Assembly (NCBI RefSeq): GCF_022012415.1
Contig: NZ_JAKLTR010000014.1
Span: 62,001 to 126,000, forward strand
Origin: Terrimonas ginsenosidimutans
GTDB taxonomy: Bacteria; Bacteroidota; Bacteroidia; Chitinophagales; Chitinophagaceae
Length of the DNA stretch: 64,000 nt
Reading direction: 5' to 3'
A program made the translations under genes and the position numbers. Position 1 is the first letter of the stretch, and each line of letters opens with the position of its first letter. Of the stretch, positions 14,495 through 46,055 are shown in pieces. The notes beneath the pieces are model-generated. The model did no database searches. It saw nothing but the letters and a program-made list of their open reading frames with translations, and was not told where the DNA came from.

Positions 14495-14721
14495 CGTTGA
14501 CCGTTGACCGTTGTCCGTTGTCCGTTGTCCCTTGTCCGTTGTCCGTTGTCCGTTGTCCGTTGTCCGTTGTCCGTTGTCCGTTGTCCGTTGTCCGATACAA
14601 CTTAAAAGTGAAGGGTTATCGTATAAAAACGATAACCCTTCACTTTTAAGTTGTACACGAAGATCCAATTTATTCCGCCCCACTTGAATTCCGGACAACG
14701 GACAACGGTCAACGGTCAACG
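14495..14721. repeat. GTTGTCC heptamer-hairpin element, copy 1
   Basis: Bases 14495-14594 hold about 14 tandem heptamers (two GTTGACC, then GTTGTCC with one CTTGTCC variant). A perfect 27-bp hairpin follows: 14596-14622 pairs with 14629-14655 around loop ATAAAA. Next comes a single-copy spacer (about 14656-14690) that is similar in all three copies. Last are four inverted heptamers (14691-14721). The outer ends form an exact inverted repeat of about 30 bp: the order GTTGACC, GTTGACC, GTTGTCC, GTTGTCC is mirrored. It lies in the divergent gap between serA and the beta-lactamase-like gene, with both promoters just outside it. Confidence 0.93.
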
Positions 14722-28721: not shown

Positions 28722-28930
28722 CCGGGGCGTAGAAGGAACGCGGCGAACGCAACGATACGCAACGGACGCAACGAAACAGCCATCTTTAATCTTGTATTTT
28801 GCCGCACTCACCGGGGCGTAGAAGGAACGCGGCGACGCAACGATACGCAACGGACGCAACGAAAACAGCCATCGTTAATATTGTATTTCGCCGCGCATCG
28901 TTGCGATCCGCCGCGTTACGCTTACGCCAG
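28722..28930. repeat. GGGGCGTAGAAGGAACGC element with a duplicated left arm
   Basis: A unit of about 84 bp beginning CCGGGGCGTAGAAGGAACGC occurs twice in tandem (28722-28805 and 28811-28894) with few differences: 'gcgaacgc' against 'gcgacgc' and 'catctttaat' against 'catcgttaat'. A single right arm (about 28891-28930, ending TTACGCTTACGCC) is the inverted complement of the unit's start. It fills the convergent gap between the phosphotransferase and hutU. Confidence 0.85.
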
Positions 28931-34099: not shown

Positions 34100-34123
34100 T
34101 TGAGCACCGAATATAGCTCATTT

Positions 34124-34345
34124 CGTTGTCCGTTGTCCGTTGTCCGTTGTCCGTTGTCCGTTGTCCGTTGTCCGTTGTCCGTTGTCCGTTGTCCGTTGTC
34201 CGTTGTCCGTTGTCCGACTCAAATCAAAAGAGAGGGATTATCGTTTTCCAAACGATAATCCCTCTCTTTTGATTTGTATATAAAGATGCAATTCTATTCC
34301 ACCTCCTTTGAATTCCGGACAACGGACAACGGTCAACGGACAACG
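34124..34345. repeat. GTTGTCC heptamer-hairpin element, copy 2
   Basis: About 13 tandem GTTGTCC units (34124-34216), a perfect 26-bp hairpin (34220-34245 with 34251-34276, loop TTCCA), the conserved spacer (about 34277-34314, containing GCAATTCTATTCCACCTCC) and four inverted heptamers (34315-34345, one being GGTCAAC). It fills the gap between the antiporter start and the DUF6515 stop 5 bp away. Confidence 0.93.
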
Positions 34346-34349
34346 ATCC

Positions 34350-35090
34350 TCATTTCCCGACGATCTTATAGGAGATCGTATTCTTCCCAACTACTTCCTC
34401 ATAATAGATATCATCCGGAGATACAAAATATTTCTGACCATTTACAACAACCGTACGACAATCGGAAGGAAGTTTATCTACGATGTCACCGATCTGCGGG
34501 CCATTATCTTCAGGTTGATCATCGATAGATCCATCATCCGTGTTTACTTTTCCATCTTTTCCTACAACAGTATACCAGATCTCACTGTTGTCTCGGATAT
34601 CTTCTTTATAATAAGTGCCGTCGAGCTCATACAGTTTCTGGCCATTGATCACGACCACTTTTGCATCTTCCGGAAGCTCTGGCACAGATGCCCCCATCGG
34701 TGCATCCACTACATCATACGTATCCTTTTTTGAACCCTGCCGGTAATAGGTGCCGCCATAGTAATAATAAGGCGCTCCACCCGCATAAATATTCCTGTAC
34801 CCGCGTGGCAACACATTTATACTGATGCCTATCGGTGGTGCAACAACGCGGAGGTAACTTCCATAGGGACGGTAATAATAACCTCCGTAATAATGATAGT
34901 TGACACCCCTGTATGGGTATACTGTCCGCGGGCCGGCAAAAAAATTAAAGCTTACTCTTGCTCCGCGATGAGGTGCATAACCGTATCCGGAACGGGGATG
35001 ATACACACGACCACGCTGTGCTGAAACATCCTGAAGCAGGATCATCGATAATGCTGCCAGGCAAAGAACACGTATTAAAGTTGGCTTCAT
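34350..35090 (-). CDS. DUF6515-type secreted protein
   Basis: 246 residues from 35090, giving a signal peptide (IRVLCLAALSMILLQDVSAQ). After a Tyr/Gly-rich stretch (about 30-115: VNYHYYGGYYYRPYGSYLRV) come two copies of the DUF6515 core: MGASVPELPEDAKVVVINGQ with YYK, and IGDIVDKLPSDCRTVVVNGQ with YFV. The family is exported or envelope-associated and has no known function. The Tyr-rich part is probably extended or surface-adhesive; that is inference. The first copy's frame continues to an upstream ATG at 35111, which is less likely. Confidence 0.82.
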   Translation of the reverse strand: MKPTLIRVLCLAALSMILLQDVSAQRGRVYHPRSGYGYAPHRGARVSFNFFAGPRTVYPYRGVNYHYYGGYYYRPYGSYLRVVAPPIGISINVLPRGYRNIYAGGAPYYYYGGTYYRQGSKKDTYDVVDAPMGASVPELPEDAKVVVINGQKLYELDGTYYKEDIRDNSEIWYTVVGKDGKVNTDDGSIDDQPEDNGPQIGDIVDKLPSDCRTVVVNGQKYFVSPDDIYYEEVVGKNTISYKIVGK

Positions 35091-40702: not shown

Positions 40703-40959
40703 CGTTGTCCGTTGTCCGTTGTCCGTTGTCCGTTGTCCGTTGTCCGTTGTCCGTTGTCCGTTGTCCGTTGTCCGTTGTCCGTTGTCCGTTGTCCGTTGTC
40801 CGTTGTCCGTTGTCCGTTGTCCGTTGTCCGACACAAATTAAAAGAGAGGGGTTATCGTTTTCCAAACGATAACCCCTCTCTTTTAATTTGTATACGAAGA
40901 TGCAATTCTATTCCACCTCCCTTGAACTCCGGACAACGGTCAACGGTCAACGGACAACG
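40703..40959. repeat. GTTGTCC heptamer-hairpin element, copy 3
   Basis: The longest copy: about 18 tandem GTTGTCC units (40703-40830), a perfect 27-bp hairpin (40833-40859 with 40865-40891, loop TTCCA), the conserved spacer (about 40892-40928) and four inverted heptamers (40929-40959, two being GGTCAAC). It lies in a convergent gap and starts directly after the MFS stop codon. Confidence 0.93.
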
Positions 40960-45557: not shown

Positions 45558-46055
45558 ATGAAGATTTTCGTAGCCGGCCTGCCTTATGATCTTGATGATG
45601 CTGAACTCGAAGAAATATTTGAAAAGTTCGGTAAGATCATTTCAGCTAAAGTAGCAATGGACAGGGAGACAGGAAAGAGCAAAGGATTTGGCTTTGTAGA
45701 AATGCTGAATGATGACGAAGCAAAAGATGCAATAGAGAGCCTTAACGATATATCATTGGGTAAAAAACCGTTGGTGGTGAAGGCGGCTGATGAGCGTGGC
45801 GGAAGCGGCGGTGGCGGTGGATACCAGGGTGGCGGCTATCAGGGCGGCGGAGGCGGTAATCGTGGCGGTGGCGGCGGTTATGGCGGCGGCGGCAACCGTG
45901 GCGGCGGAGGCGGTTACGGCGGTGGTGGTGGAAACCGTGGCGGCGGAGGCGGTTATGGAGGCGGCGGCGGTGGAAACCGTGGCGGCGGAGGCGGTGGTTA
46001 CCAGGGCGGTGGCGGAGGCTATCAGGGCGGTGGCGGCGGAGGAAGAAGATATTGA
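45558..46055 (+). CDS. Glycine-rich RNA-binding protein (single RRM)
   Basis: 165 residues from 45558; the extension to 45531 is unlikely. The RRM covers residues 1-78: RNP2 is IFVAGL (3-8), RNP1 is KGFGFVEM, with typical LPYDLDDAELEEIFEKFGKI. The second half is a low-complexity Gly-rich tail of repeating GGGGY, GGGNRGGGGG and YQGG units. This resembles the cold-induced Rbp proteins of cyanobacteria and plant GRPs. The protein binds RNA in the cytosol; a role at low temperature is likely by analogy. The DNA of the tail is a GGC/GGT-rich near-tandem repeat. Confidence 0.92.
   Translation: MKIFVAGLPYDLDDAELEEIFEKFGKIISAKVAMDRETGKSKGFGFVEMLNDDEAKDAIESLNDISLGKKPLVVKAADERGGSGGGGGYQGGGYQGGGGGNRGGGGGYGGGGNRGGGGGYGGGGGNRGGGGGYGGGGGGNRGGGGGGYQGGGGGYQGGGGGGRRY

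Follow-up and report, generated by a model that had tools for sequence, protein, structure and literature searches.

Cyanobacterial STRR sequences are tandem heptamer repeats, and the REP/BIME elements with RAYT are palindromic, intergenic and located at the 3' ends of genes. Heptamer repeats, TAACTGA repeats among them, are known in Bacteroidetes and Cyanobacteria (PMC4679880), and the GGGNATC heptamers of Xanthomonas and Nostoc are mostly intergenic, lie within 50 bp of stop codons, are few in divergent gaps and preferentially comprise four units (PMC4692102). A dispersed repeat that resembles a terminator is also known, the pneumococcal SPRITE, which is enriched at gene 3' ends, for which no target duplication is established and for which the authors suggest co-option as terminators (PMC3049150). 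Heptamers close to stop codons and a dispersed repeat resembling a terminator have each been described, whereas we found no description of the compound element treated here in the open-licence literature, and the preliminary description of the DNA analysed here knew of none either.

Architecture of the Window Copies

Three copies of such a compound element lie in the window, i.e. the whole stretch of 64,000 nucleotides that was analysed. By direct reading, copies 1, 2 and 3 start with an array of 14, 13 and 18 heptamers, respectively, followed by a hairpin with a perfect stem of 27–28 bp, a spacer of about 37–40 bp and four heptamers in inverted orientation:

14495–14721: copy 1, whole element, 227 bp
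14495–14594, + strand: copy 1, long heptamer array of 14 units on the hairpin side (sequence reading)
about 14596–14655, unstranded: copy 1, hairpin (sequence and fold)
14656–14692, + strand: copy 1, spacer (sequence and alignment of core copies)
14693–14720, − strand: copy 1, short arm of four inverted heptamers
Neighbours of copy 1, divergent: gene for a D-2-hydroxyacid dehydrogenase with ACT domain; beta-lactamase-family gene
34124–34345: copy 2, whole element, 222 bp
34124–34216, + strand: copy 2, long heptamer array of 13 GTTGTCC
34220–34276, unstranded: copy 2, hairpin, terminator-like on the + strand (terminator scan) or on both strands (lenient rule)
34277–34316, + strand: copy 2, spacer
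34317–34344, − strand: copy 2, four inverted heptamers
Neighbours of copy 2, both on the − strand: sodium/hydrogen exchanger gene; DUF6515 gene
40703–40959: copy 3, whole element, 257 bp
40703–40830, + strand: copy 3, long heptamer array of 18 GTTGTCC, likely a lower bound
about 40833–40891, unstranded: copy 3, hairpin, terminator-like on both strands
40892–40930, + strand: copy 3, spacer
40931–40958, − strand: copy 3, four inverted heptamers
Neighbours of copy 3: MFS transporter gene; gamma-glutamyltranspeptidase gene

The plan agrees with the preliminary description, which had listed three copies with 13–18 tandem heptamers, hairpin, spacer and four inverted units. The perfect pairing it reported stands as well, while its sizes of 26–27 bp for the hairpin and about 35 bp for the spacer were slightly too small. 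The array of copy 1 is composed of eleven GTTGTCC, two GTTGACC and one CTTGTCC, and the outer 30 bp of this copy (14495–14524 and 14692–14721) form, as had been noticed before, an exact inverted repeat that includes the order of the GTTGACC and GTTGTCC variants, in the sequence as well as in the fold. Exact mirroring is lacking in copies 2 and 3, where the A/T variants are ordered differently in the two arms. Folding energies of copies 1 and 2, for which the fold was run, lie far below those of shuffled sequences (z −13.5 and −14.8, respectively). A known RNA family is rejected as identity of the element, as the 64-kb window yielded no Rfam match at gathering score.

How does this element compare with the known systems? 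By its description SPRITE is the nearest analogue, being dispersed, similar to an intrinsic terminator and located at gene 3' ends, but its ends are short (AAAA/TTTT), its stem has 18 bp and its T tract is long, and the parts of the report drawn on here describe neither heptamer arms nor array growth (PMC3049150). With the bacterial heptamer repeats the element shares tandem heptamers that are mostly intergenic; those are direct arrays, however, and in the sections of the reports used here no inverted arms around a conserved hairpin and spacer are described (PMC4692102, PMC4679880). As tandem 7-mer arrays in intergenic DNA, the arms are of the STRR type, one of the two analogies drawn at the outset. 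The other one, to REP/BIME, extends to a palindromic intergenic repeat 3' of genes, but not to a linked RAYT (Y1) gene, and heptamer arms take the place of the short REP.

Some repeats of other kinds were observed in the window. An 8-bp repeat, CTCATTTC, flanks copy 2 on both sides (L033, window 34116–34357), the right one 4 bp off; over all elements such repeats are not above chance. At 28722–28894 an 89-bp unit rich in ACGCAACG occurs twice in tandem, and a glycine-rich coding stretch at 45831–46039 contains tandem repeats.

A Dispersed Family With a Common Core

The genome, a 7.14-Mb draft of 64 contigs from a member of the Chitinophagaceae, was searched by BLAST with copy 3 and then with a covariance model built on 24 copies. 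In its own genome the model scores 24 complete copies with 126–155 bits, called core copies in the following, alongside some near-core copies and, where contigs end, fragments. Core copies are 163–281 bp long with a mean column identity of 88%, and have about 100 bp of hairpin and spacer in common. The earlier expectation of tens or more copies with a conserved model is thereby borne out, and hairpin and spacer are not confined to the three window copies. Segmental duplication, which identical flanks would have indicated, is rejected as the origin of the 24 core copies, because their flanks, compared over 400 bp, show no similarity at E 1e-3. The 100 bp common to 24 copies at unrelated sites therefore need copying between loci.

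A second set of 51 non-core elements has the same kind of inverted GTTGWCC arms around other interiors, which are diverse and in many cases unlike one another. This set was drawn from similarity to the core (elements among the matches listed, of 123 at E ≤ 1 on both strands) and is biased and incomplete, and the at least 75 catalogued elements (24 core and 51 non-core) are a sample rather than a census. They derive from a scan for paired arms with 85 loci, in which one duplicate (the first element of L056, identical with L068) was counted once and 11 pairless loci were dropped as contig ends, single arms, hairpins only or degenerate arms (L054, L064, L066, L067, L069, L073, L077, L126, L236, L269 and L271).

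Our preferred reading, which we consider probable on the whole, is that the element is a dispersed intergenic palindrome, the outer parts of which are inverted arrays of the heptamer GTTGWCC/GGWCAAC, and that its core, the spacer of about 40 bp with the 27–28-bp hairpin, would act as a portable bidirectional intrinsic terminator. The element would be copied into gaps directly behind stop codons and stand in for the native terminator at some sites. Replication would keep the palindrome, as the polymerase switches templates between the arms and carries changes from one to the other, and stalling at the hairpin would let the adjoining heptamer array slip and grow.

Two loci deviate from the common plan. 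At about 2085–2140 of L238 a hairpin very like the core hairpin is found without heptamer arms, apparently 3' of an ORF. At L055 (1394–1640) the inverted repeat extends 14 bp beyond the heptamers into the flanks (GCAATGCAAAGTCC); over all elements such extension is not above chance.

Absence of the Core From a Congener and Mode of Spread

A single congeneric genome, G001, was compared, which is about 69–82% identical in syntenic matches. Ten sites were considered, six of them core; core copy L041 and element L239 were left out because gene content differs there. None of the six informative core sites carries the core in G001, in keeping with the empty sites in relatives that the preliminary description had named as support. 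Genome-wide the covariance model found no core-like match in G001, the best one reaching 34.3 bits versus 126–155 bits for the core copies. The distance between the flank matches is 275 bp in the window genome versus 49 bp in G001 at site 1 (element 227 bp), 236 versus 93 bp at site 2 (element 222 bp), and 311 versus 56 bp at site 3 (element 257 bp).

G001 has heptamer-type palindromes of its own. In a scan, one with perfect 24-bp arms, the unit order of which is unlike that of the window genome, was detected at non-core site B, and one with 14-bp arms of another unit, the GGATGAC type, at non-core site D; weaker ones were recognized by eye at two further sites, L255 and the core site A. Controls from G001, 49 kb of stretches that overlap in part, contain one distinct inverted repeat of at least 11 bp, in three loci, and none that is heptamer-like. 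Both species carry a heptamer-type palindrome at two syntenic sites (L297 and L299 in G001, L294 and L295 in the window genome), and these palindromes differ in arms and interiors.

How did the core reach so many sites? Small size, inverted ends, dispersal and empty sites in the congener would suit a non-autonomous MITE-like transposon with heptamer-array ends that is moved by a transposase encoded elsewhere, the hairpin being cargo and the position at stop codons resulting from loss of other insertions. The elements are indeed small, non-coding and dispersed with terminal inverted repeats (the exact mirrored order occurring in some of them only), and their outer ends often carry GATC or ATC. 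Nevertheless, we regard this explanation as rather doubtful: 1) Direct flank repeats of length at least 6 occur at 3 of 73 elements versus 2.9 expected, so that the target duplications the preliminary description had looked to are not above chance. 2) Arm length and order vary from locus to locus, and the interiors are diverse. 3) A transposase with such ends was not seen in a search that covered Y1_Tnp. No heptamer array lies within about 1.5 kb of either of the two Y1 loci of the genome, and G300, a family genome rich in heptamer-armed palindromes, is not among the 301 of 394 family genomes with a Y1_Tnp match. The RAYT/Y1 link suggested earlier is not found, and an element of RAYT-driven REP type is not supported. 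Across the family, Y1 matches are present in 28 of the 31 genomes positive for the heptamer pattern described below versus 273 of the 363 others, a weak tendency by hand count. One of the two Y1 loci has REP-type hairpins of its own; at L061 (800–1340) an ordinary REP-like set of repeated hairpins (CCCACGATT..AATCGTGGGC) lies upstream of a Y1/RAYT-type gene.

As the route by which copies reach new sites, we would guess that heptamer arms already in place at other loci recombine and thereby exchange their interiors, and we put this ahead of an unseen transposase; such exchange would fit site A and the many interiors. Extending this idea, the palindromes in general might be transposase-free dispersed repeats: the arms would provide shared homology, interiors including whole terminators would recombine, the arms would be rewritten in concert by template switching, which would allow related species different heptamer "dialects" in a palindrome at the same site, and terminators would be rewired. 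We put this generalization forward tentatively and would not be surprised to see it fail.

Could the elements instead have arisen without any mobility? Arrays might have formed by slippage at many loci and palindromes by template switching around existing terminators, the common core being an old relic. Arrays of several heptamer units do occur in the family and in other phyla, many interiors are mutually unlike, the core-like hairpin of L238 is free of arms, and sites B and D have heptamer-type palindromes with differing arms in both species. However, the stretch shared by 24 copies at unrelated sites requires copying between loci, and the core is absent from G001, which renders an immobile origin improbable.

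Position Relative to Genes and Resemblance to Terminators

Genes were called with our own simple codon-usage caller and not taken from annotation, and by these calls none of the 75 elements lies inside a gene. Element ends facing a stop codon are a median of 5 nt away from it (n = 63; 35 within 10 nt), those facing a start 92 nt (n = 85). In codirectional gaps elements are closer to the stop than expected, for core (n = 13, KS p 5e-5) as well as for non-core elements (n = 26, p 3e-7). Such a position right behind stop codons points away from a plain transposable palindrome and towards a terminator module. The short arm points toward the stop codon in 10 of the 13 codirectional core copies, which is a tendency only (p 0.09). 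Core copies lie in 8 convergent, 13 codirectional and 2 divergent gaps (copy 1 and L036) and 1 of unknown type, non-core elements in 4, 26, 20 and 1, respectively. When hairpins are classed by a strict self-chosen stem rule, by which imperfect ones (mostly non-divergent, with one divergent, L074) count as hairpin-less, divergent gaps contain 2 of 29 hairpin-bearing versus 20 of 44 hairpin-less elements (p 0.0005). Measured against the background of the 47-gene window alone, the shortage of divergent gaps among core copies is not significant (p 0.11).

On either strand, the foot of the core hairpin is A-rich on the 5' side and T-rich on the 3' side. A terminator scan of 33–42 kb found 20-pair sites at copies 2 and 3 only, at copy 3 on both strands and at copy 2 on the + strand, although the two genes adjacent to copy 2 lie on the − strand; applied to copy 1, the scan found no site. 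The T-rich foot lies inside the stem. A more lenient rule of our own, which allows it in the lower stem, is passed by 20 of the 24 core hairpins for both strands and by 4 for a single strand. Under this rule the hairpin resembles a terminator on the strand of the gene for 26 of the 29 genes whose stop faces an element. The element thus shares with SPRITE the character of a dispersed terminator-resembling repeat at gene 3' ends, the terminator scan agreeing for copy 3 and for one strand of copy 2. Judged by these sequence features, the core is probably an intrinsic terminator, portable and bidirectional, within a palindrome that has heptamer arms. That it is a REP/BIME-like repeat, its heptamers being protein-binding sites and its hairpin a barrier to RNA decay with no terminator involved, accords with the location at gene 3' ends and the strong hairpin but is unlikely, since a terminator better accounts for the T-rich feet present on either strand and for the avoidance of gaps between divergent genes, and no link to RAYT is seen.

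Unrelated terminator-like hairpins are present in G001 at core site C (13-bp arms, scan), at near-core site F (23-bp arms, scan) and at window site 2, a core site (by eye). The core thus appears to have replaced the native terminator at some sites; as the strict scan detects no clear ordinary terminator in G001 at sites 1, 3, A and E, replacement is seen at a minority of sites. If this reading is right, a repeat family replaced ordinary terminators at a set of genes, and the related species would offer a natural experiment in the exchange of terminators.

Co-Variation of the Stem and Proposed Growth of the Arrays

How does the hairpin remain paired while its sequence changes? Over the 24 core copies, 97.3% of the 670 cells of the 28-bp stem are paired, 14 of the 28 pairs carry changes on both sides, and two pairs each show all four Watson-Crick types. 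Counted as sequences and not as events, 50 cells are double-changed versus 6 one-sided, and 11 of the 18 unpaired cells lie at the loop-closing pair. None of 500 shuffles reaches the observed values. As the preliminary description had stated, heptamer count (14, 13 and 18 in the window) and hairpin sequence vary on a constant plan. That one-sided states are scarce fits template switching, by which a stem can be fixed in one step and double changes without intermediates are predicted (PMC8794818), although strong selection on the stem would fit too. Such double changes are the point of likeness to the template-switch hairpins, which the portion of that report used here describes for RNA genes (PMC8794818), whereas the process is proposed here for dispersed repeats.

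The array on the hairpin side is longer than that on the spacer side in 23 of the 24 core copies, with one tie, though these counts depend on the unit allowed (with looser units 22 of 24, L047 being equal and L045 shorter on the hairpin side). Arrays of a single variant are found on the hairpin side in 18 of 24 core copies versus 0 of 23 on the spacer side, and among the 28 elements whose stem is clear, almost all of them core, the median array has 11 units on the hairpin side versus 4 (p 5e-5). We infer that the arrays grow by slippage favoured by the adjoining hairpin. Exactly 18 units, i.e. 126 nt, are found in 5 of the 24 core arrays, a ceiling that we suspect to be an assembler limit (k-mer of 127), and seven contig ends fall within such elements; the longest array counts are therefore lower bounds.

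In the arms of the 51 non-core elements the order of variants is mirrored more within a locus than between loci (z 5.5), and 118 of 209 positions match versus 106.1 (sd 3.4) after shuffling of units within arms (p 0.0005), a modest effect that would likewise fit template-switch repair. No such mirroring above chance is found across the 24 core copies. The matched ends attributed earlier to the element as a whole are thus a property of copy 1 and, statistically, of non-core elements, and not of the core family. Stems that change doubly, shared sites with different arms and long arrays on the hairpin side would make template-switch repair and hairpin-driven slippage testable in bacteria.

Heptamer Arrays in Other Genomes

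Three consecutive units of the pattern GTYRWCC are matched in 31 of 394 family genomes, versus about 49 for the reversed control (hand count). As the control is the commoner one, heptamer arrays of several kinds are common, and a family-wide claim for the GTYRWCC unit is rejected. Many matches to the reversed pattern (CCWRYTG), in G318, G400, G233, G433 and G209, represent other heptamer arrays. An array scan detected the GTTGWCC unit in further phyla as well, Cyanobacteria among them. Of the GTTGWCC-array loci among the matches listed, 3 of 106 have an array of at least two units in exact inversion within 300 bp, by which count inverted arms are rejected as a general property of such arrays. 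A 21-mer specific for the core matched no stretch in the genome-contig collection, which may omit the own genome.

Similar palindromes with other units (GGWTGAC/GTCAWCC) and other interiors are found in G300 and G022. In the G300 loci that were fetched, inverted arms are seen by eye, several with an interior like GACTTCAGGTGCGGATTCGCAATAAAAG. In G008 and G048 (L081–L085) heptamers lie in frame within genes and are read as peptides such as NGQRSTVNGQ. Besides a gene of G048 of the anthranilate synthase component II type (trpG type), the genes concerned presumably encode methionyl-tRNA synthetase, BioA, an M1 peptidase and a NadR-like kinase, named here by sequence motifs. These in-frame heptamers are reminiscent of the palindromic repeats inserted in frame in genes of Rickettsia (PMC10969869), whereas the window elements themselves are intergenic. 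For the trpG-type gene, the best solved relative lacks the inserted stretch, and its alignment covers the sequence to either side of it.
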